Positions 909-59,795 of a stretch of 64,000 nt of DNA are shown here, piece by piece; the first letter of the stretch is position 1; every line of letters starts with the position of its first letter. The notes beneath the pieces were generated by a model. The model saw only the letters and a program-made list of their open reading frames with translations. It did not search any database and was not told the DNA's origin. The stretch lies in contig JAFAZX010000016.1 of assembly GCA_019239425.1 (NCBI GenBank), positions 1 through 64,000 of the forward strand, in the 5' to 3' direction. The position numbers were made by a program, and so were the translations under genes. This DNA comes from Acidobacteriota bacterium (GTDB lineage Bacteria; Acidobacteriota; Blastocatellia; Pyrinomonadales; Pyrinomonadaceae).

Positions 909-1025
909 AGTAGGCAGTAGGCAGATGGCAGGAGGCAGTTCAGCCTTCGCCACCTTGCGTCTGCCCTCTTTAGATTTCAACCTTCGGCAACCGAACTGCC
1001 TACTGCCATCTGCCTACTGCCTACT
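909..1025. repeat. R2 palindromic heptamer element, copy a
   Basis: The left arm is built from GTAGGCA-type 7-base units (909-941) and the right arm is its inverse (993-1025), with a loop of about 50 bases. The element lies between two genes transcribed leftwards. The stop codon of the lyase-like gene (1024-1026) overlaps the outer edge of the right arm. The left arm has one unit changed to GGAGGCA. Confidence 0.93.
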
Positions 1026-2199
1026 ACTTCCCCACCCACAGCACCGGCTGGCGGATGAAGAAGTTTCGGACGACCTCCTCGACCGCGGAGTCGGCCGGGA
1101 GGCGCTTCCAGAGTTCGAGGTAGTCGGGGCGTCTGAGCGCGAGGCCGGCGAAGAGGAGGCTCGACTGGCGCATCGGCCATTCGGCGTCGTACATCACGTC
1201 CGGCTTGAGCGGCCAGCGCTGCTTGTCGCGGATGAAGGGCGCCATGTACTCCAGAGCCCTCCGCATCCCGCGGCCGTCCGGCAGCTCGAACTGCCAGAGG
1301 TCGTCTGTCGGCGTCGAGAGGAGCTGACAGGTCGCGGACATCGCTTCGAGGTTGAAGAGCGAGTAGCCGTAGGGCTTCGTGCGCCGCAGTTCCTGCGGGA
1401 AGCTGCCGTCCGCGGCCATCTCTCCGGGGACGAGCACCGTCTTGAAACGCCCGCGGCAGTAGCCGAGCAGCCCCCCGTCCCCCGTCAAGTGCGCGAAGGC
1501 CGCGACCTGCATGACCCAGCAGGTGCCGTGGTTGTTCTTCGCCTCGCGTTCTTCGACGCCGTTCCCGCTGGTCGTCATCCAGCGCAGGTACTCGGCGAAC
1601 CACCTCCTCACGCCGGCCAGCTCGTCCCGCGCGAGCGCGCGCGAACCGCCCAGCACTTCGACGGCGCGCGCGACTTCGACGAGGTGGATGGTGTCGATGA
1701 TGCCGACGCCGCGCCCCTTCGTGCGGCCGTGGATGGCCTGCGCGTATTCGAGGTGCGGACTCATGAAGGTCGCGGGGTCTAAGAACCACGCGCGCAGGTG
1801 TCGCGCCGCGTGGCGCGCGTAGCGCCCGTCCTTCGTCAACCTCCACGCCGCGGCGAGCGCGGCCGCCTGCACGCTCAGGCGCATCAGCGCGCGGCGGTGC
1901 CCGACGAAGTTGTCGGGGTTGGTCATGCCGTCGCGCTGCACGTAAGGCCCCGAAGGGTTCTGCGGGTCGGGCCACCAGTAGTCGCCCTCGGAGAAGAAGT
2001 CGTGCGGCCCGCCCTCCGAGCGCGGGCCGCGCTCGGCCGTGACCGTGTAGGGCCGTTCGGATAGATACCGCCGCGCCGCCTTCAGCACGCGCGCGCGTTC
2101 GAAGGCGGCCACGTCGAAGGCGCGCGCCGGCGCCGCGAGCAGTGGCAGTCCGAGCGCCGCCGCCGAGAGGAAGTCCCGGCGCGTGTAGACCGCACCCAC
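1024..2199 (-). CDS. Alginate lyase-family protein, Tat-secreted
   Basis: The protein has 391 residues. It starts with a GTG at 2199 that overlaps the TAG stop of the upstream fucosidase by one base, so translational coupling is likely. A twin-arginine leader (TRRDFLSAAALG, then APARA) predicts folded export to the periplasm. The body matches the alginate_lyase (PF05426-type) alpha/alpha-toroid family, with FSEGDYWWPDP, a YAQAIHG block and KNNHGTCW, which carries the Asn-His pair typical of these uronate lyases. The true substrate cannot be read from sequence; another uronic-acid polymer is possible given the fucosidase neighbour. The stop codon lies at the edge of repeat R2a. Confidence 0.83.
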   Translation of the reverse strand: MGAVYTRRDFLSAAALGLPLLAAPARAFDVAAFERARVLKAARRYLSERPYTVTAERGPRSEGGPHDFFSEGDYWWPDPQNPSGPYVQRDGMTNPDNFVGHRRALMRLSVQAAALAAAWRLTKDGRYARHAARHLRAWFLDPATFMSPHLEYAQAIHGRTKGRGVGIIDTIHLVEVARAVEVLGGSRALARDELAGVRRWFAEYLRWMTTSGNGVEEREAKNNHGTCWVMQVAAFAHLTGDGGLLGYCRGRFKTVLVPGEMAADGSFPQELRRTKPYGYSLFNLEAMSATCQLLSTPTDDLWQFELPDGRGMRRALEYMAPFIRDKQRWPLKPDVMYDAEWPMRQSSLLFAGLALRRPDYLELWKRLPADSAVEEVVRNFFIRQPVLWVGK

Positions 2200-3551
2200 T
2201 AGACGGCCCCGCGCTCGCGGCGGCGGACGAACAGCTCGTCCTGACGCGGCTCGGACTCGCATTCGAGCGCGATGGTCGTGACGGGCGTGTCGGGCGCGCG
2301 CACGGGCAGGCCGCGGAAGCGCACGCGGTACTCGTCCTGCTCGAAGCGGACGGGCCTGCCCGAGGCGAGCAGGCGCGCCGACCTGACCTTCGTCTGCAAC
2401 CCCGCGAACGCGAGGTCGTCGCCGCCCGGCCAGTAGTGTACGTGGAAGTAGAGCGTGTTGCCGCGGCGCGAGAAGCTGCCGTTGCGCGACCGCCGCGGCT
2501 GGCAGCGCTCGCCCCCGACGTAGACCGACTCGCCGTTGCGCGCCGTCCAGCGCCCGACCGCGCCGAGGATGGCGACCGACTCCAGGGGGATCGAGCCGTC
2601 CGGCTTCGGCCCGATGTTGAGGAGGTAGTTGCCGCCGTCGTGCGCGCAGGTGATGAGGTTGCGGACGATCTGCTTCGGCGTCTTCCAGCCGTCGTCGGCG
2701 CGTTGGTAGCCCCAACTGTCGTTCATCGTCATGCAGGACTCCCACGCGCGCCCGACCTCGGTCGCCGTGATCTGCTGCTCGGGCGTGGAGAAGTCTCCGG
2801 CGAGCTTGTTGCGGTTGTTGACGATGATGTCGGGCTGGAGGTCGAAGACCATCCGGTTCATCCGCTCCGACTCCCAGCCCGCGGCGTCGAGCGGCCAGGA
2901 GACGTCGTACCAGAGCACGTCCACCTTGCCGTAGTTCGTCAGCAGTTCGCGCAGGTGCGTGTGGATGTATTCGACGAAGCGGCGGCGCGCGGCCTCGTCC
3001 CGCTCGCAGCGCGCGCCGTCCGGGTGGTGCCAGTCCATCAGGGAGTAGTAGAAGCCGACGCGCAGGCCCTCGGCGCGCGCGGCCTCGACGTACTCGCGGA
3101 CGAGGTCTCGGCCCGGCCCCTGTCTGGGGGCGCAGAAGTCGGTCGTCTTCGTGTCGAAGAGGCAGAAGCCCTCGTGGTGCTTGGTCGTCATGACCATGTA
3201 GCGCTGGCCGGCGCGCTTGGCGAGCTGCGCCCACTCGCGGGCGGCGTTCGGGCGGGGGCGGAACTCCCTGGCGATGCGCGCGTACTCGGTCGCCGGGATG
3301 CCCTCCATCTCCTGCACCCACTCGTGGCGGCCGAGGACGGAGTAGAGGCCCCAGTGGATGAACATGCCGAACTTGGCCTCGTGCCACCAGCGCATGCGCC
3401 GCTCGCGGTCGGCTTTTGTTTCCGCACTCTCTTGGGGAATCGGCGGCGGGTTCGACTGCGCGCGCGCCTCTGTCAAAGGTAACGCCGTCGCCGCCGCGGC
3501 GCCGCCGAGTAACTTCATGTAGTCGCGTCTCGACATCTGTCCGTCGTCCAT
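2199..3551 (-). CDS. Alpha-L-fucosidase, GH29, Tat-secreted
   Basis: The protein has 450 residues and should release terminal L-fucose in the periplasm or outside the cell. The leader contains SRRDYMKLLGG followed by an Ala-rich stretch, a Tat signal; a second ATG five codons in (MSRRDY) could be the real start. The GH29 signature WHEAKFGMFIHWG is clear near residues 50-65. VLWYDVSW near 210-219 contains the Asp (about D216) expected as nucleophile. A C-terminal beta-sandwich-like part follows at about 350-450. It overlaps the next gene by one base and belongs with the fuconate dehydratase and the SDR in a fucose route. Confidence 0.93.
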   Translation of the reverse strand: MDDGQMSRRDYMKLLGGAAAATALPLTEARAQSNPPPIPQESAETKADRERRMRWWHEAKFGMFIHWGLYSVLGRHEWVQEMEGIPATEYARIAREFRPRPNAAREWAQLAKRAGQRYMVMTTKHHEGFCLFDTKTTDFCAPRQGPGRDLVREYVEAARAEGLRVGFYYSLMDWHHPDGARCERDEAARRRFVEYIHTHLRELLTNYGKVDVLWYDVSWPLDAAGWESERMNRMVFDLQPDIIVNNRNKLAGDFSTPEQQITATEVGRAWESCMTMNDSWGYQRADDGWKTPKQIVRNLITCAHDGGNYLLNIGPKPDGSIPLESVAILGAVGRWTARNGESVYVGGERCQPRRSRNGSFSRRGNTLYFHVHYWPGGDDLAFAGLQTKVRSARLLASGRPVRFEQDEYRVRFRGLPVRAPDTPVTTIALECESEPRQDELFVRRRERGAV

Positions 3552-3571
3552 ATTCTATATGCCTCTCCTCG

Positions 3572-3710
3572 CCGGGAGCGCGGGCATCCCTGCCCGCTAG
3601 CGCGCTTCAGCGCGCTGACCGTCGTACTCTTCGCCTCAACGTTGAGACATAACGTTTCTCTGCCTTCGCGCTGCGCGCTCATGCGGGCAGGGATGACCGC
3701 GCTCCCAGCG
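3572..3710. repeat. R3 palindromic element, copy a
   Basis: This is a 139-base element with outer arms GGGAGCGCGGGCAT/ATGACCGCGCTCCC and an internal inverted pair GCGCGCTTCAGCGCGC. Its centre contains CCTCAACGTTGAG. Two further copies lie at 17705 (in opposite orientation) and 62242. It fills the gap between the fucosidase start and the end of the first TonB receptor gene. Confidence 0.9.
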
Positions 3711-3711
3711 T

Positions 3712-7369: not shown

Positions 7370-7444
7370 TTAACCACAGAGACACAGAGGCACGGCTTCC
7401 TGAGATATGTGCCCCAAGCCGTGCCTCTGTGTCTCTGTGGTTAA
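7370..7444. repeat. R1 palindromic element, copy 1
   Basis: This 75-base perfect hairpin has arms TTAACCACAGAGACACAG and its inverse ending GTGGTTAA. It carries a paired change relative to other copies: GGCACGGCTT against AAGCCGTGCC, where most copies have GGCACAGCTT against AAGCTGTGCC. It lies between the two receptor genes, both transcribed leftwards, about 32 bases upstream of the ATG of the first. Confidence 0.95.
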
Positions 7445-11553: not shown

Positions 11554-12387
11554 ATGGGGTCTCGGTACGCCGACAAGGTCGTGGTCGTGACGGGGGGCAG
11601 CAGCGGCATCGGCAGGGGCTGCGCGCGGGAGTTCGTCCGCGAGGGGGCGCGCGTCGTCGTCGGCTCCAACCAAGAGGTGGGCGGCCGCGCCGTCGAGCGC
11701 GAGTTGCAGGACGTGGCGCGCGCCGGAGGCGGCGGCGAGGCCGCCTTCGTCTACTGCGACGTGACGAAGGAGGGGGACGTGCGCCGCCTCGTCGAGACGG
11801 CCGTCGGGCGCTTCGGCCGGCTGGACTGCCTCGTCAACAACGCCGGCTGGCACCCGCCGCACAAAGCCATCGACGACTTCTCGGTCGAGGAGTTCCGCTC
11901 GCTCCTGGAGCTGAACCTCGTCAGCGTCTTCACGGCCTGCAAGCTCGCGCTCCCGCACCTGCGCCTCGTGCGCGGCAACATCATCAACATGTCGAGCCTC
12001 GTCGGGCGGATCGGGCAACACCACGCGACGACCTACGTCGCGACGAAGGGTGCGGTGACGGCCTTCACCAAGGCGCTCGCCCTGGACGAGGCGGCCGGCG
12101 GCGTGCGCGTCAACTCAATCTCGCCGGGCAACATCTTCACGCCCCTGTGGCAGGAGGCGGCCGACGCCGCGCCCGACCCGGAGCGCGCTCTGGCCGAGGG
12201 GCGCGCGGCGCAGCCCGTGGGAAGGATGGGGACGGCCGAGGAGGTCGGGCGCTTGTGCGTCTACATCGCCGCGGAGGCGACCTTCACGACCGGCGTGGAT
12301 CACATCATCTCGGGCGGTGCCGAGTTGGGCTACGCGAACAAGTCAATTCACCACAGAGACACAGAGGCACAGCTTGTTGAGTCATAG
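11554..12387 (+). CDS. SDR-family dehydrogenase, L-fucose dehydrogenase/HSD17B14-like
   Basis: This 277-residue short-chain dehydrogenase has an NAD-binding TGGSSGIG near residue 14, NNAG near 91 and a catalytic YVATKGA (YxxxK) near 160. Stretches RLDCLVNNAGWHPP, VRVNSISPGNIFTPLW and GGAELGY closely resemble human HSD17B14, which has been reported to oxidise L-fucose. With GH29 fucosidase and fuconate dehydratase nearby, the likely job is oxidising L-fucose to its lactone in the cytoplasm. The ATG at 11554 follows GGAGGG by 10 bases. The last 12 codons (HHRDTEAQLVES) are read from the R1 repeat, which supplies the stop; the native end was probably near AELGYANK. Confidence 0.88.
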   Translation: MGSRYADKVVVVTGGSSGIGRGCAREFVREGARVVVGSNQEVGGRAVERELQDVARAGGGGEAAFVYCDVTKEGDVRRLVETAVGRFGRLDCLVNNAGWHPPHKAIDDFSVEEFRSLLELNLVSVFTACKLALPHLRLVRGNIINMSSLVGRIGQHHATTYVATKGAVTAFTKALALDEAAGGVRVNSISPGNIFTPLWQEAADAAPDPERALAEGRAAQPVGRMGTAEEVGRLCVYIAAEATFTTGVDHIISGGAELGYANKSIHHRDTEAQLVES

Positions 12388-12421
12388 ACTCCAAGCTGTG
12401 CCTCTGTGTCTCTGTGGTGAA
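12347..12421. repeat. R1 palindromic element, copy 2
   Basis: This 75-base hairpin lies between the convergent SDR and LacI genes. The SDR reading frame enters the left arm and stops inside the loop region. The LacI stop (12427-12429) is five bases beyond the right arm. It may act as a two-way terminator. Confidence 0.95.
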
Positions 12422-13534: not shown

Positions 13535-13610
13535 TTCACCACAGAGACACAGAGGCACAGCTTGTTGAAGTATTCCTCTTCAAGCTGTGCCTCTGTGTCT
13601 CTGTGGTTAA
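13535..13610. repeat. R1 palindromic element, copy 3
   Basis: This hairpin of about 76 bases lies in the divergent gap between the LacI and GH28 genes, ending 26 bases before the GH28 start. This copy is therefore in a 5' region, not a 3' region. One end reads TTCACC and the other GGTTAA. Confidence 0.95.
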
Positions 13611-17628: not shown

Positions 17629-17704
17629 CGGCCCCACGTTTACGCCCTCCGTTACTCTTCCTTCTTCTTATACCGACTTGCAGAATAAAATAAGGCCGCT
17701 TAAA

Positions 17705-17843
17705 GCTGGGAGCGCGGGCATCCTTGCCCGCCTGAGCGCGCAGCGCGAAAGCTGTGAGGCACTACACCTCAACGTCGAGGTAAAGAGTACGATGGTCAGC
17801 GCGCTTTCGCGCTCAGGCGGGCAGGGATGCCCGCGCTCCCAGC
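17705..17843. repeat. R3 palindromic element, copy b (inverted orientation)
   Basis: The outer arms GCTGGGAGCGCGGGCAT and GATGCCCGCGCTCCCAGC form a long stem. The centre (CCTCAACGTCGAGG, then GTACGATGGTCAGCGCGC) matches copy a on the opposite strand, so this copy is inverted relative to a and c. It lies in a gap without genes. Confidence 0.92.
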
Positions 17844-17934
17844 GACGAGGGGCCTTATCCCATCTCGCAAGGCGGTATTAGTATACTTCCGCACGCGGAG
17901 GCTCTAAGATTTTGAGGCGAGAGGTGAGACGAAC

Positions 17935-25481: not shown

Positions 25482-25498
25482 CGCTCACTCCTCGGAGA

Positions 25499-26253: not shown

Positions 26254-26347
26254 CGTTCCTCCGGATGAGAACTGTCTGCGGAATCAAAGAGAGGCGGTGT
26301 GCCCTGTTTGATACAACAAAACGGGGGCGCACGGCAAGAGAGTTTCA

Positions 26348-40263: not shown

Positions 40264-40338
40264 TTCACCACAGAGACACAGAGGCACAGCCTGTTGAGTA
40301 ATCCTCAAGAAGCTGTGCCTCTGTGTCTCTGTGGTTAA
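40264..40338. repeat. R1 palindromic element, copy 7
   Basis: This is a 75-base hairpin with ends TTCACC and GGTTAA and a slightly mismatched inner stem (CAGCCTG against GAAGCTG). It lies between the convergent HYR gene and the small membrane protein gene. Confidence 0.95.
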
Positions 40339-41091: not shown

Positions 41092-42237
41092 ATGAGTCCC
41101 AAACCCTTTCGACGTCTCGCCCTCGCGCTGGCGGCCGCGCTCGCGCTCGGCCCGCAGGCCGCGCGAGCGCAGGACGGCGACGGCCGCAGCAGGCCGCGGG
41201 CGCGGCCCGAAGACCGGGCACAGCCCGAAGGCCGGGCGCGAAAGGCCACGCCCGAACAGCCCGGCAAGGACGGCCCGGCGGCGACCTCGGCCGGCGGCTG
41301 GCGGCTCAAGCGCACCCTGCGCGGCCACGAGGGCGCGGTCTACTCGGCCGCCTTCTACCCCGAGGGGACGCGCGTGGCGACCTCGGGCGACGACGGGCTG
41401 GTCAGGGTTTGGGACGTGCGGACGGGGCGGCTGCTGCGGAGCGCGCGCGTGGCGAGCGGCACGGTCAGCGACGTGGCCGTCTCGCCCGACGGGAGGCTGC
41501 TCGCCTCCTGCACCGACAGCGGCGAAGGCTCGCAGGTGCAGCTCCGCGACGCGCGCACGCTCCTGCTGCGACGCACCCTCGCCTCGCAGGAGGACGGGGT
41601 CTTCGAGGTCGTCTTCTCGCCCGACGGCCGCCTGCTCGCCAGCGGCGGGCGCGACCACGTCGTGCGCCTCTGGGACGTTCGGACGGGCCGCCTCGCGCGC
41701 GCGCTCAAGGGGCACGACGACGCGGTGACGGCGCTCGCCTTCACGCCCGACGGCCGCAAGCTCGCCAGCGCCAGCGCCGAGCACGACGGCACGGTGAGGC
41801 TCTGGGACGTGAGCACCGGCGCGTCTCTGCACACCCTGGCGGCGCACGGCGACTGGGTGACCTCGGTGGCGTTCGCGCCGGGCGGCGCGACCCTCGCGAG
41901 CGGCGGCCGCGACCACAAGCTCATCATTTGGGACACCGAGACGGGCCGCAAGATTCGCGAGCTGCACCAGCCCGAGATGGTCTACGAGATCGAGTTCTCG
42001 CCCGACGGCCGCCTGCTGGCCGAGGCCGGCGGCGGCGGCATCGTCCGCCTCCACGACCCGCGCACCGGCCGCCTCCTCTCCAAGTTCGAGGCCCACCGCG
42101 AAGAGATCAACGAGGTCAAGTTCTCGCCCCGCGGCCTGCTCCTTTTGACGGCCAGCTACGACTCCACCGTCAAACTCTGGGAGCCAGACCCCAACGCCCC
42201 CGCCCACAAAGACCCGCCGTCGAAGTGGCTGGAGTGA
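41092..42237 (+). CDS. Exported WD40-repeat beta-propeller protein
   Basis: The protein has 381 residues from the ATG at 41092, supported by GGAGGAG four bases upstream; an in-frame ATG at 40993 lacks a site. A signal peptide (LALALAAALALGPQAARA) is followed by a charged linker to about 60. At least seven WD40 blades follow, each with a GH/D turn and a closing LWD or equivalent (VRVWDVRTG, VRLWDVRTG, VRLWDVSTG, LIIWDTETG, VKLWEPDP). It probably forms one propeller in the periplasm and acts as a protein-binding scaffold. The partner is unknown. It is convergent with the response regulator gene, with R2e between them. Confidence 0.88.
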   Translation: MSPKPFRRLALALAAALALGPQAARAQDGDGRSRPRARPEDRAQPEGRARKATPEQPGKDGPAATSAGGWRLKRTLRGHEGAVYSAAFYPEGTRVATSGDDGLVRVWDVRTGRLLRSARVASGTVSDVAVSPDGRLLASCTDSGEGSQVQLRDARTLLLRRTLASQEDGVFEVVFSPDGRLLASGGRDHVVRLWDVRTGRLARALKGHDDAVTALAFTPDGRKLASASAEHDGTVRLWDVSTGASLHTLAAHGDWVTSVAFAPGGATLASGGRDHKLIIWDTETGRKIRELHQPEMVYEIEFSPDGRLLAEAGGGGIVRLHDPRTGRLLSKFEAHREEINEVKFSPRGLLLLTASYDSTVKLWEPDPNAPAHKDPPSKWLE

Positions 42238-42241: not shown

Positions 42242-42348
42242 GTAGACAGTAGGCAGTAGGCAGTAGAAAAAACATGCGGCGCGCCTTCAGCCTTCGGGCC
42301 AAGCGCGCCGCTTCGTATTCCTACCGTCTACTGCCTACTGCCTACTGC
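42242..42348. repeat. R2 palindromic heptamer element, copy e
   Basis: The arms carry three to four GTAGrCA units. The loop contains a second hairpin (ATGCGGCGCGCC against GCGCGCCG) shared with copy f, defining a subfamily. It lies between convergent genes, and the response regulator gene takes its TAG stop from the right arm. Confidence 0.93.
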
Positions 42349-47407: not shown

Positions 47408-47549
47408 GCTCTTAAATGCCCGGGTACGCGCGCTGGCAAGAAGCTTGAAAGGCTTCCAGGCGGGGAGAACGGACTTTGGGACTTCAGGGGTGAGTGCATG
47501 GTAAGGCTTTTCCGCCGCGCCGTCTAGGAGAGAGGTACGTTTGTGAACA

Positions 47550-47650
47550 GTAGGCAGTAGTCATTAGGCAGTAGTCAGTAGGAAAACAGATGCGGCGCGT
47601 CTTAACCTTTAGGTCAAGCGCGCCGCATCTGTTTTCCTACTGACTACTGC

Positions 47651-47668
<18 letters not shown>
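47550..47668. repeat. R2 palindromic heptamer element, copy f
   Basis: The arms have five degenerate units (GTAGGCA, GTAGTCA, TTAGGCA, GTAGTCA, GTAGGAA) extended into the stem GAAAACAGATGCGGCGCG. The inner loop is shared with copy e. The ABC ATPase gene is read into the right arm and takes its last five codons (VGSSH) and stop from it. The upstream part 47408-47549 shows nothing else. Confidence 0.94.
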
Positions 47669-48340
<672 letters not shown>

Positions 48341-48359
48341 CTGGCGGCCTCTTAACAAA

Positions 48360-48440
48360 GGATGAAGGATGAAGGATGAAGGATGAAGGCGCTGTGGTCT
48401 GCCGTGACTTCAGCCTTCCGCCCTCATCCTTCATCCTTCC
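48360..48440. repeat. R6 palindromic heptamer element
   Basis: The left arm is four GGATGAA units (48360-48387). The right arm, read inversely, has two GGATGA-type units and then diverges (CCTTCCGCCC), so the hairpin is imperfect. It lies in the presumed 5' leader of the ABC ATPase gene, 20 bases before its ATG. Confidence 0.82.
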
Positions 48441-48569: not shown

Positions 48570-50096
48570 TCAGGCCGGCAGGCGCAGACGCGCCGCGCAG
48601 CCCGGCCCGCCCTTCCGGTTCTCGAGCATGAGGGTGCCGCCGTGCGCCTCCGCGATCTGGCGCGAGAGCACGAGCCCTATCCCCGACCCGCCCGGCTTCG
48701 TCGTGAAGAAGGGCACGAAGAGGTTCGAAGTGTTCGCCAAACCCAGCCCCTCGTCCTCGACGCAAATCTCCACGTTCCCGTTCGCGGCGGCGCGCCAGCC
48801 GACGCGCACCCCGCCGCCCGTCACCAGAGACGCGTCGGCCGCGTTGCGCACGAGGTTGATGAGGAGCTGTTCGAGCTGGTCTGCGTCGGCGCGCACGGTC
48901 AGCTCCGGCCCCGGGATGACGGAGACGCGCACACGCGTCTCGAGCCCCGCCACGCGCCGCACGAGCTGACCGAGCTCGACGAGGGCGAGCTTCGGCGGCG
49001 GCAGGCGCGCGAGGCGCGCGTACGACTCCATGAACCGGCTTAAACTCTCCGCGCGCGCCGAGACCACGTCGAGGCCGCTGCGCACGTCCTCGCGCCAGTC
49101 CTCGGGCAGGGGGTCGCGCGCGAGCAGCGAGGAGACGCTGCCGGCGATGGACTTGATGGGAGCGAGCGAGTTGTTCAGCTCGTGGCCGAGGACGCGCACG
49201 ATGCGCTGCCACGCCTTCAACTCCTCTTCGCGCAGGGGCCGGCTCAGGTCGCCGATGACGAGGAGCTGGTGCGGCACGCCGCGCTCGCGGAAGGTGCTGC
49301 GGCGCATGCCCCAGCGGCGCACCTGCCCGCCGTCGCCGGGGAAGGCTTTCGTGAGCGTCCGCGTCTCGTTGTTCTCGCGCACGCGCAGCACGTCGGCCAG
49401 CCCCAGCTCTTCCGCCGTGCGGCCGTAGGCGCGCTCCTCGGGCCTTGAGAGCAGGCGCTCGCCCGCGCGGTTGACGAGGCGCAGGCGGCGTTCGGGGTCG
49501 AAGGCGAAGACGGCCACGTCGATCTCGGCCATGACCGTCCGCAGGAGCGCCGTCGCTTCGAGCGCGCCGATGCGCTGCTCGCGCATGGTCTCGCCGAGCG
49601 CGTTGATCTCGCGGATGACCTCGCTCAGCGCGTCCTGCCCGCGCCCGCCGCGCGCCCGGAAACTGTAGTCGCCCTCGCGCAAGGCGGCGAGCAGGTTCGA
49701 GACCGTCTGCAGCGGCCGCACCACGCGGCCCTGCACCGCGAACGAGAAGCCGAGCCAGAAGCAGACGACCAGCGCGCCCAGCGTCCACACGACCTTCGGC
49801 GTGTAGCCGCCGACCCACAGAAGCACGAGCGACACGACCACGCCCGGCGCGCCCGCGGCCAGGGCCATCAGGAGCACGCGCCGCTCGTGCGCCATCGGCT
49901 CGCGCCGCCCCTTGTGGCCCTCCTCCAGGTGGCCCGCGTGTGCGGCGGAGGTGTCGGGCCGCACGTTGGGAGGAGTCGCGGGCGCGTGCGCCTCGACGCG
50001 CGCGGGCGCAGAGGCGGAGTTCACAGGGCGCGGCCCCGCCGCACTGACGCCCGCGGCCCCCGACAGACCCGAGACCTGCTCCTCAGACTTCATCAC
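48570..50096 (-). CDS. NtrY-like membrane sensor histidine kinase
   Basis: The protein has 508 residues. A proline/alanine-rich cytoplasmic N-terminus (1-70) precedes two membrane helices (VLLMALAAGAPGVVVSLVLL and VWTLGALVVCFWLGFSFAV) with only a very short loop between, so the input is probably within the membrane or cytoplasmic. A HAMP linker (VRPLQTVSNLLAALREGDYS), a PAS domain (about 185-300), the H-box VLGHELNNSLAPI and a HATPase (NLVRNAAD, DEGLGL, GSGIGLVLS) follow. The LGHELNN form is typical of NtrY/NtrB-class kinases that act on NtrC regulators, and the NtrC-type gene at 53264 is the natural partner. Confidence 0.92.
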   Translation of the reverse strand: MMKSEEQVSGLSGAAGVSAAGPRPVNSASAPARVEAHAPATPPNVRPDTSAAHAGHLEEGHKGRREPMAHERRVLLMALAAGAPGVVVSLVLLWVGGYTPKVVWTLGALVVCFWLGFSFAVQGRVVRPLQTVSNLLAALREGDYSFRARGGRGQDALSEVIREINALGETMREQRIGALEATALLRTVMAEIDVAVFAFDPERRLRLVNRAGERLLSRPEERAYGRTAEELGLADVLRVRENNETRTLTKAFPGDGGQVRRWGMRRSTFRERGVPHQLLVIGDLSRPLREEELKAWQRIVRVLGHELNNSLAPIKSIAGSVSSLLARDPLPEDWREDVRSGLDVVSARAESLSRFMESYARLARLPPPKLALVELGQLVRRVAGLETRVRVSVIPGPELTVRADADQLEQLLINLVRNAADASLVTGGGVRVGWRAAANGNVEICVEDEGLGLANTSNLFVPFFTTKPGGSGIGLVLSRQIAEAHGGTLMLENRKGGPGCAARLRLPA

Positions 50097-52183: not shown

Positions 52184-52253
52184 GGGCAGTAGACAGACGG
52201 CAGCAGACAGTTAAAAAACATTCTTCTAACTGCCTGCTGCCGTCTGCCTGCTA
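52184..52253. repeat. R2 palindromic heptamer element, copy g, with compensatory changes
   Basis: Relative to canonical R2, both arms change together: GATG to GACG with CATC to CGTC, and GTAG to GCAG with CTAC to CTGC. The loop is about ten bases. It lies between convergent genes. The channel gene stops one base before it, and the gene at 52251 uses a TAG at its right edge. Confidence 0.94.
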
Positions 52254-53168: not shown

Positions 53169-53178
53169 GGCTTACGCC

Positions 53179-53256
53179 CGTGAGCCGTGAACCGCAAACC
53201 GTGACAAGTGAAGACCGGTTCTTCCTCTTGTCACGGTTTGCGGTTCACGGCTCACG
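53179..53256. repeat. R7 palindromic heptamer element
   Basis: Perfect 30-base arms (53179-53208 and 53227-53256) are built of GTGAGCC, GTGAACC, GCAAACC and GTGACAA units. The loop is 18 bases. It lies between the NtrC-type gene and the hypothetical gene, both transcribed leftwards, and ends seven bases from the NtrC stop. It is the only copy in the window. Confidence 0.94.
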
Positions 53257-53263
53257 GCTCTTC

Positions 53264-54628
53264 TCAGATTTCGTACTTCTGCATCCGGCGGTAGAGGGCG
53301 CTGCGGCTGAGGCCGAGGGCTTCGGCGGCCTGGCTGACGTTGCCGCCGAAGCGGCGCAGGGCCTTCTGGATGAGGAGGCGCTCGACCTCTTCGAGGCTCA
53401 TCTCTTCGAGGCGGCGCTCGCCGCCCCCGCCCGCGGCCTGGAGCCCGAGGTCGAGCGGCTTCACGTCCTCCGCGCGCGCGAGCAGCACCGCGCGCTGGAC
53501 GACGTGGTCGAGTTCCCGCACGTTGCCGGGCCACGCGTACGAACGCATGCCGTCGAGCGCCGCCGGCTCGAAGCCGCGCAGGGGTTTGCGGTAGCGCTGC
53601 GCGTGTATGCGGAGGAAGTGCTCGGCGAGCGCGGGGATGTCTTCGGGGCGCTCGCGCAGGGGGGGCAGGTGTATCTCGACCGTGTTGAGGCGGAAGAAGA
53701 GGTCTTGGCGGAAGCGGCCCGTGGCGGCCTCGTCCTTGAGGTTCGCGTTCGTCGCCGAGAGCACGCGCACGTCCACGCGCCGCGTCTGCGAGGAGCCGAC
53801 GCGCTCGAACTCGCCGGTCTCGAGCACGCGCAGGAGTTTGGGCTGGAGGTTGACGGGGACGTTGGCGATCTCGTCTAGGAAGAGCGTGCTGCCGTCGGCC
53901 AGCTCGAAGCGCCCCACCCGGTCGGTCTTCGCGTCCGTGTAGGCGCCGCGGACGTGTCCGAACAGCTCCGACTCGAAGGTGCCTTCGGCGAGCGCGCCCG
54001 CGTTGACGGCGACCATCGGCTTCGAGGCGCGCGCGCTCAGGGCGTGGAGCGTGCGCGCGACGACCTCCTTGCCCGTGCCGTTCTCGCCGGTGATGAGGAC
54101 GTTGGCGTCCGAGGGGCCGACGTGGCGTATCAGTTCGAGGACGGGCTGCATCGCCTCGGACTCGGCGATGAGCAAAGGCTTCGCGCCGTTGCCGCCGTCC
54201 TCGCGCAGCATCTTGTTCTCGGCTTCGAGCCGCTCGCCCTTGCGCAGGGCGCGCGCCAGTTCCGTGTGCGTGCGCAGGATCGTGAGCAGCCGCGCGTTGT
54301 CCCAGGGCTTCTGCACGAAGTCGCGCGCGCCGCGCTGCATCGCCTCGACGGCCAGCTCGACGCTGCCCCACGCGGTCATGACGACGACGGGGAGCGTCGG
54401 GTCGAGTTCTCGTAAACGTGCTAACAGGTCTAGACCTTCCTGTCCGCTCGTCGTGTCGCGCGTGTAGTTGAGGTCGATGAGCGCCACGTCGAACGACTGG
54501 CGCGCGAGCGCCTCGGCCGCGTCCGCGGGCGACGCGACGGCGCGCGTCTCGAAACCCTCGCCCTTCAACAGGAGGCGCAAAGCCTCGATCACCGCCGGCT
54601 GGTCATCTGCGATAAGTACGCGGGGCAT
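53264..54628 (-). CDS. NtrC-family sigma-54-type response regulator
   Basis: The protein has 454 residues: receiver (Asp52 in VALIDLNYTRD), AAA+ domain with Walker A GENGTGKE and Walker B LADGSTLFLDEI, and a C-terminal Fis-type helix-turn-helix (VSQAAEALGLSRSALYRRMQ). The loop that contacts sigma-54, usually GAFTGA, reads GAYTDA here. This could weaken or alter sigma-54 contact, although related variants do occur in functional regulators. The likely cognate kinase is the NtrY-like protein at 48570-50096. No ribosome site precedes the ATG, and repeat R2h starts nine bases upstream. Confidence 0.92.
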   Translation of the reverse strand: MPRVLIADDQPAVIEALRLLLKGEGFETRAVASPADAAEALARQSFDVALIDLNYTRDTTSGQEGLDLLARLRELDPTLPVVVMTAWGSVELAVEAMQRGARDFVQKPWDNARLLTILRTHTELARALRKGERLEAENKMLREDGGNGAKPLLIAESEAMQPVLELIRHVGPSDANVLITGENGTGKEVVARTLHALSARASKPMVAVNAGALAEGTFESELFGHVRGAYTDAKTDRVGRFELADGSTLFLDEIANVPVNLQPKLLRVLETGEFERVGSSQTRRVDVRVLSATNANLKDEAATGRFRQDLFFRLNTVEIHLPPLRERPEDIPALAEHFLRIHAQRYRKPLRGFEPAALDGMRSYAWPGNVRELDHVVQRAVLLARAEDVKPLDLGLQAAGGGGERRLEEMSLEEVERLLIQKALRRFGGNVSQAAEALGLSRSALYRRMQKYEI

Positions 54629-54636: not shown

Positions 54637-54774
54637 GTAGTCGGTAGACAGTAGACAGCAGTCAATAATCGAAGGGGGCCGGGATGCCGAAAACTATCTC
54701 ACCCGAATGCCGGCAGCGCAAGAACCGAAGGCGCGCGGCGGGCGGAGACCTACTGACTACTGTCTACTGTCTAC
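54637..54774. repeat. R2 palindromic heptamer element, copy h (divergent)
   Basis: The left arm is GTAGTCG, GTAGACA, GTAGACA, GCAGTCA. The right arm, read inversely, is GTAGACA, GTAGACA, GTAGTCA, GTAGG. The loop is about 87 bases and GC-rich. It lies between the first ADOP gene's end and the NtrC-type gene's start, or rather in the latter's leader. Confidence 0.9.
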
Positions 54775-54779
54775 TCCCT

Positions 54780-57191
54780 TCATTCATATCGAAGCGCGAC
54801 TATCGGGTCGACCTTCGTCGCGCGCCGCGCGGGGACGAGACAGGCCAGGAGCGCGACCGCCGTGAGCAGCAGCGAGACGAAGGCAAAGACCGTCGCGTCG
54901 GTCGCGGAGACTTCGTAGAGCAGGCTCGCGAGCACGCGCGTCAGGGCGAAGGCCGCTGCGAGTCCGGCCAGCACCCCGCCGAGCGCGAGCGCCATCCCCT
55001 GCCGGACGACCATGCGGATGACGTCCCCGCCGCGCGCGCCGAGCGCAATGCGGATGCCGATCTCGTGCGTCCGCTGCGTCACCGTGTAGGACATCACGCC
55101 GTAGACGCCGACCGCCGCGAGCAGCAGCGCCACGCAGGCGAAGGCCGTCAGGAGCTGCGCGTAGAAGCGCGGCTGCGCGACCTGCTCCGAAAGCAGTTGC
55201 TCCATCGTCCTCACGCCCGCGGCCGCGCGCGCCGCGTCCACCTCGCGCACCGCCCTCTGCGCCGCGGGCGCGAGCGCGGTCGGATCGCCCTCGGTGCGCA
55301 CGATGAAGGAGGACGAGAGCCACGGGCGCTGCAGGTAGCAGTCGTAAATCTGTATGCCGGTCGGCTGCCCGACCGACTGCTTCGTGTCGGCGACGACGCC
55401 GACGACCTCGAGCGCAATGCGCCGCTCCATGTAGTCAATCGTGAGGCGCTTCCCCAAAGGGTCTTCGCCGGGGAAGACGCGCCGCGCCATCGTCTCGTTG
55501 ATGAGCGCGACCGCGGGCGCGCCATCGGCGTCGCGCTCCGTGAAGCCGCGGCCGCGCAACAAGGGGATGCGCATCACCTCGAAGTAGTTGGGGCTGACCG
55601 CGAGGTAGTCGGCCTGCGGCTCCTCGCCGGCGCGCGCGGGCCTTCCCTCGACGCCGAAGGAGAAGTTGAGCACCCAGTCGAGCGGGAGGCTCGAAGCGAG
55701 GGCCGCGCCGCGCGCGCCGGGGAGCGCCGCGAGCCTCTCCTGCATCTTCCCGAAGTACTCGGCGCGCTGCGCGTTCTGCCCGTAGAGCTGCGGCGGCGCG
55801 CCGACGGTCAGCGTGAGGAGGTTGCGCGGCTCAAAGCCCAGCTCGGTCTGTTGCAGGCGGATGAAGCTGCGCAGCAGGAGGCCCGCGCCGACGAGCAGCA
55901 CCAGGGTCACCGCGATCTCCGCGACGACCAGGAGTCCGCGCGCGCGGCGGACGCGCGCCTCCGAGGACGCGCCCCGCCCCGTCTCTTTGAGCGCGAGGTT
56001 GAGGTCGGGCTTCGAGACCTTCAGGCCGGGCAGCAGGCCGACGAGCACCCCCGCCGACAGCGAGACGAACGCCGTGAACGCCAGCACCCAGCCGTCCACG
56101 CGCGCCTCGTCGAGCCGCGCGAAGCGCAACTCTTCGGGCACGAGCGCGAGCAGGCCGTCGACGCCCCACAGCGCCAGCACCACGCCCAACGCCCCGCCCG
56201 CGACCGTGAGCAACACGCTCTCGGCGAGCAGTTGCCGCACGACGCGCCAGCGCGTCGCGCCGAGCGCCGCGCGCACGGCCATCTCTTTGTAGCGCGCCGT
56301 CGAGCGCGCGAGCAGGAGGTTCGTCACGTTCGCGCACGCGATGAGCAGCACGAACCCGACCGCGCCGAAGAGGACGAGCAGGGCGGTGCGCGCCTGCGAC
56401 CCGACCAGCGTCTCGCGCAGGGGGATGAGGCGCACGCCCCAGTCGCCGTTCGAGTCCGGGTAGGCTTCGGCGAGCCGCGCGGCGACGCCGCCCAACTCAC
56501 CTTGCGCCTGCTCGCGCGTCAGGCCCGACTTCAGGCGGCCGACGACCGCGAAGTAGCGGCTCGTGCGCTGCCTCAGCTCGCCGGACTTGCTCGGGAGCGG
56601 CGTCCAGACTTCGGCGTAGGCCGGATACCTGAACCGCTCCGGCATGACGCCGACGACCGTCGCGCTCCCGCCGCCGACGAGCGGCAACTGCTTTCCGATC
56701 ACGCCCGGGTCGCCGCCGAAGCGGCGTTGCCAGAGTCTGTGACTCAGAAGGACGGGGCGCACTCCCGCGTCAACGAACTCTTCGGGCGCGAGCACGCGGC
56801 CGAGCGCGGGCGCCACGCCGAGCAAGCCGAAGAAGTCTTCGGAGACGCGCACGCCCGAGAGCTGTTCGGGCAGGCCGCCCGTGTCGAGCGTGAGGCCGCC
56901 GCCGGTGTAGGCCGCGAGCCCGTCGAAGGCTCGGCTCTGCGCGCGCCAGTCCATGAAGTCGGCGGGCGCGACGCCGCGCACCTCGGCCGCGCCGCCGCGC
57001 CTGTTCTCCGCCGCGGCGACGACCAGACGCTCCGGGGCGGGGAACGGCAGGGGCCGCACGAGCGCCGCGTAGACGACGCTGAAGACCGCCGTGTTGATGC
57101 CGATGCTCAACCCCAACGTCAGCACCGCGACCAGCGTCAGCCCCGGCCGCTTCGAAAGAGTCCTCAGCCCGTAGCGCAAGTCTTGAAGCAT
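54780..57191 (-). CDS. ADOP-type ABC transporter permease (MacB/FtsX), copy 1
   Basis: The protein has 803 residues from the ATG at 57191 (MLQDLRYGLRTLSKRPG), preceded by GGAG. The layout is the acidobacterial duplicated orphan permease: membrane helix 1, a MacB-type periplasmic core domain, an FtsX block (ANVTNLLLARSTARYKEMAVRA), a second periplasmic domain and a final FtsX block (MSYTVTQRTHEIGIRIALGARGG). It ends LVPARRATKVDP-x-VALRYE like its neighbours. Such permeases should export lipids, peptides or toxins, or act mechanically with an ATPase. No ATPase is fused or adjacent. Confidence 0.93.
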   Translation of the reverse strand: MLQDLRYGLRTLSKRPGLTLVAVLTLGLSIGINTAVFSVVYAALVRPLPFPAPERLVVAAAENRRGGAAEVRGVAPADFMDWRAQSRAFDGLAAYTGGGLTLDTGGLPEQLSGVRVSEDFFGLLGVAPALGRVLAPEEFVDAGVRPVLLSHRLWQRRFGGDPGVIGKQLPLVGGGSATVVGVMPERFRYPAYAEVWTPLPSKSGELRQRTSRYFAVVGRLKSGLTREQAQGELGGVAARLAEAYPDSNGDWGVRLIPLRETLVGSQARTALLVLFGAVGFVLLIACANVTNLLLARSTARYKEMAVRAALGATRWRVVRQLLAESVLLTVAGGALGVVLALWGVDGLLALVPEELRFARLDEARVDGWVLAFTAFVSLSAGVLVGLLPGLKVSKPDLNLALKETGRGASSEARVRRARGLLVVAEIAVTLVLLVGAGLLLRSFIRLQQTELGFEPRNLLTLTVGAPPQLYGQNAQRAEYFGKMQERLAALPGARGAALASSLPLDWVLNFSFGVEGRPARAGEEPQADYLAVSPNYFEVMRIPLLRGRGFTERDADGAPAVALINETMARRVFPGEDPLGKRLTIDYMERRIALEVVGVVADTKQSVGQPTGIQIYDCYLQRPWLSSSFIVRTEGDPTALAPAAQRAVREVDAARAAAGVRTMEQLLSEQVAQPRFYAQLLTAFACVALLLAAVGVYGVMSYTVTQRTHEIGIRIALGARGGDVIRMVVRQGMALALGGVLAGLAAAFALTRVLASLLYEVSATDATVFAFVSLLLTAVALLACLVPARRATKVDPIVALRYE

Positions 57192-57210: not shown

Positions 57211-57286
57211 GTGATAAGTGATGAGTGATAGGTGATAAGAAAGAACGTCGGGCCGTGTCTTCCTCTTATCACTTATCACTTATCAC
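57211..57286. repeat. R4 palindromic heptamer element, copy b
   Basis: The left arm is GTGATAA, GTGATGA, GTGATAG, GTGATAA. The right arm repeats GTGATAA inversely. The left flank CTCACTCCGTTCGCAG is identical to that of copy c. It lies between ADOP copies 1 and 2 and provides the stop of copy 2. Confidence 0.93.
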
Positions 57287-59694
57287 TCGTATCTGAGAGC
57301 TACCATCGGGTCGACCTTCGTCGCCCTTCTTGCGGGGACGAGGCAGGCCAGGAGCGCCACCGCGGCGAGCAGCAGCGCGACGAGTATGTAAACGCCCGGG
57401 TCTGCGGCCGAGACTTCGTAGAGCAGCCCCGTCATCAAGCGCGTGAGCGCGAGGGCGCACGCCAGCCCGACGGCGAGACCCAACAGGGTGAGCAGCATGC
57501 CGTGGCGAACGACGAGCCGCACCACGTCGCGGCGCTGCGCGCCGAGCGCGACGCGCACGCCGATCTCGCGCGTGCGCTCCGTGACGGCGTAAGAGACGAC
57601 GCCGTAGAGCCCCACGCCCGCGAGCAGCAGCGCGGCCACGGCGAAGCCCGCCATCAGGAACATCGACACGCGCCTGTAGGCGGTCGAGTCCGCCACGACC
57701 TTCCCCAACGTCTTCACGTCGTAGATGGGCAGTTCGCGGTCGAGCGCGCGCACCTCTTCGCGCACGGCGCCGACGAGCGACTCGGCCCCCGCGCCCCGCG
57801 CGCGCACGGTCAGGGAGAGTCCGCCCCACTCGGCGTCCTGCGCGTGCGGCACGTATATCTGCGGCGCGCCCGCGGTTTCGAGCGAGTCCGGCTTCGTGTC
57901 GCCGACGACGCCGACGATCTCGCGCTGAAACTCCTCGTCGCGCCAGATGTGTATGCGCTTGCCGACGGGGTCTTCGCCCGGGAAGACTTTGCGCGCGAGC
58001 GACTCGTTGACGACGGCGACCTTCGCCGAGTCCGTCCGGTCGCGCTCGTCGAAGGCGCGCCCCGCGCGCAGGGGTATCCGCAGCGCGCGGAAGTACCCCG
58101 GCGTGACGACCGAGTAGGACGCGTCGATTGCCTCCTCCGGGGTCTCGGGCCGGCCCTCGCGGATGAGGCCGCGCCAGATGGAGTAGTCGCTGCCGCGGAG
58201 CGGGAGCTGGATGGTCGCGCCCGCCGACTCGACGCCGGGCAGAGACCTCACGCGCTCCAACAGCGTCGCGTAGAACTCGACCTTGCGCGCCGGCTCCTTG
58301 TAGCGCGCGCCCGGCAGCGAGACGCGCATCGTGATGACGCCCTCGGGGTCGAAGCCCGGGTCAACGGCTTGCAGCCGCCCGAAGCTCTTGACCAGAAGCC
58401 CCGCGCCCGCGAGCAGCAGGAGCGAGACGGCGACCTCCGCGACGACTAAGCCCGAGCGCATGCGGCTGCGCCCGCCGCCCGCGCCGCGCCCGCCCTCCTT
58501 CAGGGAGTCGTTGAGGTCGTAGCGCGAAGCCTGCCACGCGGGCGCGATCCCGAAGGCGACGCCCGTCAGGACGCTCGCCCCCGCCGCGAACAGGAGCACG
58601 CGCCAGTCGGCGGAAGTCTCCGCGAGCCGCGGCGTGCCCGCGGGCGCGAGCGCCACGAGCAGGTCGGTCAGCCACACGCTCAGCGCCGCGCCGAGCGCCC
58701 CGCCCGCGACGCCGAGCAGCACGCTCTCCGTCAACATCTGCCGCGCGATGCGCCAGCGCCCCGCGCCGAGCGCGAGCCGCAACGCGACCTCCCGGCGGCG
58801 GCCGGCCGCGCGCGCCAGCAGGAGGTTCGCCACGTTCGCGCACGCGATCAGCAGCAGCAGCCCGACGCCCGCGAGCAGCATGAAGAGCGTCGTCTTCAAC
58901 TCCCCGACCAGCGCGTCCTTGAGCGGCTGGAGCCGCACGCCCCAGCCCACGTTCGTCACCGCGTAAGCTTCGGCGAGCCGCGCGGAGATCGCGTCCAACT
59001 CCGTCTGCGCCGCCGCGACCGCGACGCCCTCGCGCAGACGGCCGACGACGAAGAGGCTGCGGTTGTCGCGCGCCTCCTTCGCCAAGTCGAGCTGGAGCGG
59101 AACCCAGAGTTCCGAACGATACGGGAAGTCGAACCCGGCGGGCATGACGCCGACGACCTCGCGCTGGCGTCCGCCCAGGTCTATCGTGCGTCCGACGGCC
59201 GCGGGGTCTGCGCCGAAGCGCCTGACCCAGAGCGCGTGGCTGAGGACGACGACGGGCGCGCTCCCCGGCTTGTCGTCTTCGGGCAGGATCGCTCGGCCCC
59301 GCGCCGCGCCGACGCCCAACACGCGGAAGAAGTCCGGCTCGACGTAAGCGCCGGCCACGCGCTCGGGCTCGCCGCCGCCCGACAGGTTCGCGCTGCCCGG
59401 CGTGTAAATCGCGAGCGCCTCGAACGAGCGCGCCTGCGACCTCCAGTCCACGGCGTCGGGCGCGGACAGGTTGCTCTCCTTGATGCCCTTCGACGGGTTG
59501 ACGCCCTCGAAAGCGATGACGCGCTCCGCGCCCGGGTACGGCAAGGGCCGGAGCAGCACCGCGTTGACCACCGAGAAGATCGCCGTGTTCGCCCCCACCC
59601 CCAGCGCCAGCACCGCCAGCGCCACCAGACTGAACCCCGGCCGCTTCGCCAACACCCTCAGACCAAAACGCACGTCCTGCCACAGTGTTCTCAT
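57283..59694 (-). CDS. ADOP-type ABC transporter permease (MacB/FtsX), copy 2
   Basis: The protein has 803 residues, starting MRTLWQDVRFGLRVLAKRPG. It has the same eight-helix MacB/FtsX double-module plan as copy 1, with FtsX blocks ANVANLLLARAAGRRREVAL and VVSYAVTERTREIGVRVALG. The periplasmic domain differs strongly from its neighbours (NLSGGGEPERVAGAYVEPDFF), while the C-terminal KVDPMVALRYE is nearly identical. The TGA stop is the TGA of the first 7-base unit in repeat R4b. The start is followed upstream by the same spacer found before copy 1. Confidence 0.93.
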   Translation of the reverse strand: MRTLWQDVRFGLRVLAKRPGFSLVALAVLALGVGANTAIFSVVNAVLLRPLPYPGAERVIAFEGVNPSKGIKESNLSAPDAVDWRSQARSFEALAIYTPGSANLSGGGEPERVAGAYVEPDFFRVLGVGAARGRAILPEDDKPGSAPVVVLSHALWVRRFGADPAAVGRTIDLGGRQREVVGVMPAGFDFPYRSELWVPLQLDLAKEARDNRSLFVVGRLREGVAVAAAQTELDAISARLAEAYAVTNVGWGVRLQPLKDALVGELKTTLFMLLAGVGLLLLIACANVANLLLARAAGRRREVALRLALGAGRWRIARQMLTESVLLGVAGGALGAALSVWLTDLLVALAPAGTPRLAETSADWRVLLFAAGASVLTGVAFGIAPAWQASRYDLNDSLKEGGRGAGGGRSRMRSGLVVAEVAVSLLLLAGAGLLVKSFGRLQAVDPGFDPEGVITMRVSLPGARYKEPARKVEFYATLLERVRSLPGVESAGATIQLPLRGSDYSIWRGLIREGRPETPEEAIDASYSVVTPGYFRALRIPLRAGRAFDERDRTDSAKVAVVNESLARKVFPGEDPVGKRIHIWRDEEFQREIVGVVGDTKPDSLETAGAPQIYVPHAQDAEWGGLSLTVRARGAGAESLVGAVREEVRALDRELPIYDVKTLGKVVADSTAYRRVSMFLMAGFAVAALLLAGVGLYGVVSYAVTERTREIGVRVALGAQRRDVVRLVVRHGMLLTLLGLAVGLACALALTRLMTGLLYEVSAADPGVYILVALLLAAVALLACLVPARRATKVDPMVALRYE

Positions 59695-59712
59695 AGCTCA
59701 CTCCGTTCGCAG

Positions 59713-59795
59713 GTGATAAGTGATGAGTGATAAGTGATAAGAGAAGATAAGGCCCGTCTGTTCTCTCTTATCACTTATCACTCATCACCTATCAC
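59713..59795. repeat. R4 palindromic heptamer element, copy c
   Basis: The left arm is GTGATAA, GTGATGA, GTGATAA, GTGATAA. The right arm is the inverse with one changed unit. The loop (AGAGAAGATAAGGCCCG) is nearly the same as in copy a, 34 kb away. It lies between ADOP copies 2 and 3 and provides the stop of copy 3. Confidence 0.94.

Follow-up and report, generated by a model that had tools for sequence, protein, structure and literature searches.

Small cyanobacterial repeats are reportedly the subject of a paper by Elhai. In the available part of the report by Di Nocera et al. (2013, PMC3733652), GTAG- and CGTC-tagged REPs are described as dispersed palindromes located mostly between unidirectional and convergent ORFs and adjoining gene 3' ends. 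The heptamer TAACTGA forms direct repeats in Beggiatoaceae that place stops in all three frames, and 13 sets overlap the stop of the upstream gene; according to the sections available, the stop-bearing orientation necessarily places these repeats at ORF ends (MacGregor 2015, PMC4679880). Rehm et al. (2015, PMC4692102) described, in the accessible portion of the article, GGGAATC and GGGGA(C/T)T heptads in Xanthomonas and Nostoc, with 70 and 75 inverted pairs in two Xanthomonas genomes. Their downstream heptads are mostly within 50 bp of a stop and on the coding strand, and some overlap the stop. In the available text of Petrillo et al. (2006, PMC1590033), stable stem-loops are preferentially found in convergent gaps and in the first 50 bp beyond a stop.

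The present study examined the window, namely positions 1 to 64,000 of contig JAFAZX010000016.1 (GCA_019239425.1, Acidobacteriota bacterium, forward strand), together with 60 stretches of 20 kb. This sample covered 1.264 Mb of the 7.45-Mb draft genome (G000, 94.6% complete), and stretches of three congeners (G001, G002, and G003) were compared with it. Tandem seven-base units were found in intergenic DNA, as in bacterial heptad repeats, and Rfam gave no matches at gathering score in the window. Heptad arrays were found by hairpin detection; a strict period-7 array search missed most of the R2 arrays of the window because their third unit is altered. Period-7 arms were present in 136 of the 274 hairpins, and none of these 136 was wholly inside a called gene.

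Hairpins of the window and the stops that they hold

The preliminary description had named ten genes with stops inside or overlapping repeat arms. This observation largely holds and was confirmed in part: eight stops (25585, 29778, 29952, 33029, 42342, 47651, 57283, and 59792) are fully contained in a heptad arm or array, whereas two (1024 and 52251) only overlap an outer edge. The stop at 1024-1026 belongs to an alginate-lyase-like gene (Pfam PF05426) and overlaps the outer edge of an R2 (CAGTAGG) hairpin on the minus strand (909-1026; arms 909-941 and 993-1025). The stop at 52251-52253 (minus strand) of a hypothetical protein is on the outer edge of a degenerate R2-like hairpin with convergent genes on either side (52188-52253, no strand assigned; arm 52224-52252), the unit consensus of which (weak copy 52194-52246) does not contain a stop.

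The wholly enclosed stops are distributed over seven elements. GTGATAA/GTGATGA arrays at 25497-25596 (minus strand) hold the stop of the [2Fe-2S] small subunit of an aldehyde oxidase (25585-25587) in the right array, and the G003 orthologue likewise reads through a heptad arm with a related unit. At 29766-29966 (no strand assigned), R2 arms fill a convergent gap and enclose an R1 hairpin (29817-29890); one arm contains the MFS stop (29778-29780, plus strand) and the other the LTXXQ/Spy-like stop (29952-29954, minus strand), and the C-termini of both proteins are unlike those of congeners. The left arm of a GTGAATA hairpin (33028-33184, plus strand) contains the ECF sigma stop (33029-33031), and G002 and G003 stop at the same codon. 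R2-type arrays occupy another convergent gap (42242-42348, no strand assigned), in which the right array contains the response-regulator stop (42342-42344, minus strand) and the stop of the gene at 41092-42237 (plus strand) precedes the left array. The remaining three elements are on the minus strand. R2-type arms at 47549-47669 run on into a G+C-rich inner stem and hold the ABC ATPase stop (47651-47653) in the right arm, while GTGATAA hairpins at 57211-57287 and 59713-59796 contain the ADOP 2 stop (57283-57285; same codon in G002 and G003) and the ADOP 3 stop (59792-59794), respectively, in their right arms.

Three other minus-strand elements directly follow a stop that remains outside: an R2 hairpin at 26346-26430 (gene 26434-27966), a CCGTGAG/GTGAACC hairpin at 53178-53257 (gene 53264-54592), and CAGTAGA-type arms at 54644-54775 (gene 54780-57191). 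With no strand assigned, an R2 hairpin at 32285-32355, between genes 31594-32151 and 32465-33031, is away from any stop codon, and an AAGGATG hairpin at 48358-48438 is located between genes 47651-48340 and 48570-50093. The SDR stop (12385-12387), previously placed inside R1, is within the period-8 R1 element at 12347-12421 (plus strand); it is in the loop, between the arms at 12347-12376 and 12392-12421, and the SDR ORF therefore crosses the left arm. No outside-in stop was seen in the R1 arm of this copy at 12347.

Anchoring of heptad hairpins to stop codons

The distance check that had been proposed for the enrichment of stop codons in the elements gave a positive result in the genome sample. 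Of 907 gene ends, 160 had a heptad array with an inverted partner; for gene starts, read outwards, the count was 79 of 907, and none of 745 gene-internal positions had one. At 60 of the 160 gene ends, the arm began no later than the stop codon. The difference between gene ends and gene interiors, together with recurrence in congeners, ruled out chance or a gene-caller artefact. Where tandem junctions left 40 or more free bases, the heptad covered the stop or was no more than 10 nt away in 31 of 40 cases, whereas uniform placement predicted 4.8. R1 also leaned to the stop side in these roomy gaps (7/26, 3.5 expected), and other hairpins gave 7/29 (2.4 expected). Over all stop-facing flanks with two neighbours, the counts were 131/159 for heptads (92.9 expected) and 27/77 for R1 (25.8 expected). 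Divergent gaps comprise 26.6% of intergenic DNA, but hold only 7 of 133 heptad elements (p = 1.6e-10). We conclude that the anchoring of heptad hairpins to stop codons is real and that R1 hairpins are anchored much less. The inclusion of R1 in the same stop system was not supported, its placement being near-uniform over all flanks and its arm, as seen in the window copy, bearing no outside-in stop.

The statement that the seven-base unit always includes TAG, TGA, or TAA was incorrect. A stop was read outside-in in 102 of 136 elements (inside-out in 9), and 18 of 31 consensus units bore one, against 14.3 expected from shuffled units. Among 272 arms, 99 stopped three frames, 109 two, 30 one, and 34 none. 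Composition predicted 68 stop-bearing elements rather than 102, and the mean number of frames stopped was 2.0 in arms, 1.2 in shuffled arms (shuffling breaks the period), and 0.3 when read inside-out; both excesses are dominated by a few large families, the count by unit being 18/31. In-arm stop codons were TAG in 36, TGA in 20, and TAA in 4 cases, and ends without a heptad had TAG in 168, TGA in 383, and TAA in 196.

The arm reached across the stop codon in 56 of 121 cases with stop-bearing units and in 4 of 39 with stop-less ones (p = 4e-5), and in congener stretches in 22/43, 5/19, and 5/12 stop-bearing versus 0/7, 1/3, and 1/7 stop-less cases. These results support the idea that the elements are tolerated at gene ends. 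A stop in register with the unit was also looked for where the stop's first base precedes the arm; it was found in 9 of 65, as for a random register, and stops preceding an arm thus appear to be native.

Gene ends in congeners

To count as orthologues, proteins had to align over 60% of their length at 65% identity. Pairs were excluded when the alignment stopped more than 25 residues short of the C-terminus, when no more than 200 nt of the stretch remained, or when a stop was reached only after more than 60 extra codons. Genes 74-88, a block 99.8% identical in G003, were excluded from the co-occurrence and C-terminal counts for that genome (39/25/18/151 with the block retained).

The length of the C-terminus differed from that of the nearest relative in 13 of 30 genes with an in-arm stop, 4 of 31 with the arm after the stop, and 42 of 187 controls without a heptad. 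This is a modest excess (p = 0.022 and 0.011), and in some comparisons the nearest relative has its own heptad. An initial table with fewer orthologues (at least 60% identity across 50% of the protein), limited to pairs in which the relative lacks an element, was in agreement: lengths differed in 5/10, 8/13, and 6/8 in-arm genes and in 15/74, 23/61, and 7/20 genes with no element in either species. The expected C-terminal change was accordingly found for some of the genes. In the other 17 of the 30, the stop codon was at the same position as in the nearest relative, which is, for this part of the set, one of the outcomes that the preliminary description had named as speaking against it; the native stop of these genes may simply match the heptad unit.

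Hairpins co-occurred at orthologous gene ends with odds ratios of 10.2 (G003), 9.4 (G002), and 8.2 (G001). The ratios held where the gap in the draft genome was at least 60 nt (8.1, 7.5, and 8.1, respectively), and gap size was rejected as the cause. Among 62 heptad ends with an orthologue, 41 had a heptad in some relative, of which 26 were of a different family. The same orthologous gene end often bears a different heptad family in another species. Our search of the literature, in which subscription journals were thinly covered, found no mention of congeners exchanging heptad hairpins at the same site in this way.

Emptier sites were also observed. A junction of -4 nt in G002 measures 124 nt here, where it holds a 121-nt element, and the ADOP 3 junction is a 21-nt gap with no element in G003 and 97 nt here. 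At 20 junctions with a heptad here and none called in the relative, the gap was at least 50 nt longer here in only 7, which weighs against insertion; the other gaps were of comparable length or shorter, in part because weak hairpins of the relative escaped detection. At one gene end (C18:76270-76761), a hairpin is nested within the arms of another, older family. At another (C5:174519-175127), a hairpin is present where two congeners carry a different one, the 3' arm of which persists alongside. The latter is probably a replacement, and the two cases are probable intermediates of exchange. Remnants of the previous family were detected in only 7 of 66 directions (33 different-family pairs, one gene counted twice), with a null mean of 2.4 and 2 of 200 shuffles as high as 7.

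We speculate, at slightly less than even odds, that gene ends act as sockets in which the slot between the stop and the next gene is emptied and refilled by unrelated heptad families as species diverge. Insertion into a standing hairpin followed by the loss of the old arms would keep the presence of a hairpin while its sequence turns over. However, selection that maintains a hairpin at the 3' end would also lead to conserved presence with family turnover, even if insertion had no preferred site.

Origin of the hairpins and likeness to known systems

We observed placement at stops, in-arm stops that depend on stop-bearing units, commoner small C-terminal differences, and a change of family at the same ends. 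The reading that we favour, with a probability of roughly 0.55, is that the heptad-armed hairpins on or approximately 10 bases from stops are small inserted cassettes carrying their own stops. Where a cassette landed on the old stop or shortly ahead of it, the codon in its own arm would take over and allow the insertion to survive. On this view, a cassette ahead of the native stop could persist only if it supplied a stop, although stop supply would not be why the elements exist. A mobile or copy process may deliver the hairpins to gene ends, an existing hairpin or stop region may be the preferred landing place, and hairpin-templated copying may keep the two arms mirror images. PF01797 (Y1_Tnp, RAYT domain) gave no matches in the draft genome, G001, and G003 and two in G002, and no transposase was tied to the elements; mobilization by a RAYT was rejected because the domain gave no match in the draft genome. 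Spread by plasmids was also rejected, with one partial match only in a plasmid collection.

As RNA, very stable stem-loops are predicted for the elements at the 3' end of the message from the upstream gene; the six heptad elements that were folded had z values of -7 to -23. They may be functional 3'-end structures under selection, namely terminators (bidirectional in convergent gaps) or mRNA stabilizers, with stop overlap as a by-product of compact ends. The rarity of heptad hairpins in divergent gaps and the tendency of congeners to keep a hairpin at the same gene end despite a change of family fit this explanation, and the available text of Petrillo et al. (PMC1590033) indicates that stem-loops near stop codons are general in bacteria. 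We nevertheless regard it as unlikely. T-tracts are few (at least six T in 12 nt at 37/272 heptad exits, 20/114 for R1, and 18/164 for other hairpins), and 33 of 93 tandem elements finish 3-12 nt ahead of the next start (hand count). Furthermore, the stop is often within the stem, and a ribosome terminating there is expected to open that stem.

The proposal that the elements are stop cassettes, tolerated or selected at gene ends, is partly supported. Retention for ending translation in all frames would explain the outside-in excess of stops and the 2.0 frames stopped per arm. However, this excess comes from a few families and partly reflects C-poor composition, 34 of 272 arms stop no frame, and at 100 of the 160 gene ends the first base of the stop precedes the arm. 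Families without a stop lie close to stop codons as well (28/42 stop-facing flanks inside or within 10 nt, versus 105/120 for stop-bearing families). Selection as stop cassettes is therefore weakly supported and improbable. Growth in place, in which slippage amplifies a native stop-containing sequence and hairpin-templated copying mirrors it, appears very improbable. The native TGA is in unit register at some ends (e.g., genes 49, 904, and 905), and variants are mirrored: the third R2 unit matched between arms in 19 of 20 readable elements (of 35; 11.7 by shuffle). On the other hand, R2-type arrays are dispersed (259 genome matches to a 14-mer; altered third unit CAGATGG in both arms of 15 of these 20 elements), near-identical R2 arms occur at unrelated loci, and a different family is nested inside an older one.

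If cassettes really exchange at fixed ends, the genus offers a natural experiment on 3'-end hairpin function versus harmless landing, which are separable because hairpin presence is more conserved than sequence. The insertion of cassettes would also offer a simple rule by which orthologues come to differ slightly at their C-termini, and a warning that the last residues of a gene and its stop can be encoded by a repeat.

Repeats that supply stops are already known (PMC3733652, PMC4679880), and same-site exchange is the part that is apparently unreported. As far as the available parts of these reports extend, the elements resemble GTAG REPs in their location near gene 3' ends and their ability to supply a TAG stop. 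They differ as follows: the arms consist of period-7 arrays with many units, GTAG being present in some of these only (R2 units contain it; AAGGATG, CTGGGTG, AACCGTG, AAGTGAT, and others do not); no RAYT domain was found in the draft genome; and congeners repeatedly carry different families at the same gene ends. Seven-base units and stop codon overlap are shared with the TAACTGA repeats, which, in the text available (PMC4679880), are direct, with one inverted case, and mainly precede starts, whereas those described here are inverted pairs at stops with many units. The stem-loops of Petrillo et al., in the accessible text (PMC1590033), are not heptad-armed, unlike the present hairpins. The Xanthomonas and Nostoc heptads, in the portion available (PMC4692102), have one G-rich unit type and were read as G-quadruplexes, whereas the present genome has 31 unit consensus sequences and same-site turnover.

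Hairpin families and their anatomy

We sampled 1.264 Mb of the studied 7.45-Mb draft genome (G000), namely the window plus sixty 20-kb stretches, and detected 274 hairpins whose arms were 20 nt or longer. Period-7 arms were present in 136 (heptad hairpins) and period-8 arms in 34. The 136 heptad elements fell under 31 unit consensus sequences, some of which are single doubtful copies; the commonest were AGGCAGT (R2, n=35), AAGGATG (n=18), CTGGGTG (n=15), and AACCGTG (n=8). Read from the outside in, heptad arms were C-poor (A 31, G 39, T 20, and C 10%). Among the 20 of 35 R2 elements readable in both arms, 19 carried the same third-unit variant in both, versus 11.7 after arm shuffling; therefore, the R2 arms are coupled. 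The predicted folds of six heptad hairpins and one R1 hairpin were far more stable than those of shuffled sequences. We infer that heptad hairpins may have a role as RNA.

R1 hairpins (CACAGAGA/CACAGAGG, period 8) form a separate dispersed family that is common in convergent gaps and much more weakly anchored to stops. They occur in the window at 7370-7444, 12347-12421, 13535-13610, 29817-29890, and 40264-40338. A G+C-rich family (CGCTGGGAGCGCGGGCATCC...) was noted in the window at 3570-3710, 17667-17881, and 62242-62381 as well as at G000:C5:87510 and G000:C30:24173, and was nested in an ATACC... hairpin with coincident centres at two sample sites outside the window. The density of heptad hairpins along contig runs was uneven, with 28 in 140 kb (G000:C33) and 16 in 60 kb (G000:C38) versus 2 in 220 kb (G000:C30). 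The R2 14-mer occurred 259 times in G000, 123, 7, and 0 times in the congeners G003, G002, and G001, respectively, and 102 times in G010, which belongs to another genus.

Stop codons and placement at gene ends

Heptad hairpins avoided divergent gaps, which held 7 of 133 although they make up 26.6% of intergenic DNA. Of 40 heptads at tandem junctions with free space of 40 nt or more, 31 lay over a stop codon or within 10 nt of one (4.8 expected); the corresponding numbers were 7 of 26 for R1 (3.5 expected) and 7 of 29 for other hairpins (2.4 expected). These positions depend on our own gene caller, which may miss genes or misplace starts. The preliminary description listed ten stops in the window as inside or overlapping repeat arms, and this was borne out: eight lie entirely within an arm or array, and the remaining two overlap an edge. 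Across the sample, the stop was inside the hairpin at 55 of 120 stop-facing flanks of stop-bearing units and within 10 nt at 50 more, versus 5 and 23 of 42 for stop-less units.

It was also proposed that the repeats are stop cassettes tolerated, or selected, at gene ends. When counted by gene end, the arm began no later than the stop in 56 of 121 stop-bearing cases versus 4 of 39 stop-less cases, and we conclude that an element needs an in-arm stop to persist ahead of the native one. In genes with a later-starting arm, the register between stop and unit was random (9/65), so these stops look native. A stop occurred in 102 of 136 elements outside-in and in 9 of 136 inside-out. Shuffling letters within units gave 14.3 stop-bearing units (18 of 31 observed), 68 stop-bearing elements (102 observed), and a mean of 1.2 frames stopped per whole arm (2.0 observed), the latter two comparisons being weighted by a few large families. 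Stop-less families are nevertheless positioned at gene ends, and we conclude that the in-arm stop is probably not the cause of placement.

C-terminal length differed from the nearest relative, which may itself carry a heptad, in 13 of 30 genes with an in-arm stop versus 4 of 31 with the arm after the stop and 42 of 187 heptad-free genes (p=0.011 and 0.022). In the first orthologue table, shifts in in-arm genes with an element-free relative were small (-15 to +5 residues). In the window, the lyase-like, response-regulator, and hypothetical genes lacked an orthologue in the set compared. The MFS, Spy-like, and ABC ATPase proteins had an altered end relative to at least one congener, as did the [2Fe-2S] subunit relative to G001, whereas the stop codons of ECF sigma, ADOP 2, and ADOP 3 match in position those of the congeners compared.

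Same-site occurrence and turnover in congeners

Orthologous gene ends were compared with 637 kb of G003, 418 kb of G002, and 264 kb of G001 (MFS orthologue identity 90, 80, and 75%), all genomes being draft bins. With one near-identical block left out, the counts of heptads in both genomes, G000 only, the relative only, and neither were 32/25/18/143 for G003, 16/25/6/88 for G002, and 13/13/6/49 for G001. The odds ratios of 10.2, 9.4, and 8.2 (8.1, 7.5, and 8.1 with G000 gaps of at least 60 nt) assume independence of neighbouring genes. Over 20.7 kb or more (L040-L042; G000:C14, about 99350-120060), up to where the G003 stretch ended, G000 was 99.8% identical to G003:C79:159286-180000, with approximately 85% identity just before this block; it reflects either recent transfer or a contig that is mis-binned or chimeric.

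When both genomes had a heptad, the units were unlike (at most 5 of 7 letters matching in the best rotation) in 17 of 32, 8 of 16, and 8 of 13 pairs for G003, G002, and G001, a cut-off that also separates some related units, such as AAGTGAT and AATGATG; at most 4 letters left 9, 7, and 7 pairs. Inheritance also plays a part because units were shared in 15, 8, and 5 pairs, versus 20, 18, and 8% under random pairing. Downstream of gene C5:168220-168741, hairpins from at least three heptad families lie between the same stop and next gene across G000 and the three congeners. The C18:76270-76761 site has a CTGGGTG hairpin enclosed by R2 arms, and G003 has plain R2 there. At C5:174519-175127, an R2 hairpin in G000 occupies the position of an AAAGTTC hairpin in G003 and G001, and a stretch resembling the AAAGTTC 3' arm persists downstream of R2. 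We read this as replacement of one hairpin by another. Remnants of an earlier family turned up in only 7 of 66 directions (null mean 2.4).

Some element-free congener junctions were nearly without spacer: one measured -4 nt in G002 and carries a 121-nt element in G000, with TAG instead of TGA as the stop, and an ADOP junction measured 21 nt in G003 versus 97 nt in G000. Clean additions were a minority, the G000 gap being at least 50 nt longer in 7 of 20 comparisons. By eye, heptad-like arms were present at the nadA end in another acidobacterial record (L164) and also in a Terriglobia record (L170, about 2226-2340), where inverted arms of period-7-like pattern occupied all the space before the following gene.

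Comparison with known repeats

We rejected assignment to the GTAG REP family because GTAG is absent from most heptad units here, unlike in GTAG REPs, and the G000 draft yielded no RAYT domain. The literature searched gave no account of many heptad units per genome, tight stop anchoring of inverted heptads, or same-site exchange. In Xanthomonas, inverted heptad pairs and heptads directly after stops have already been published (PMC4692102).
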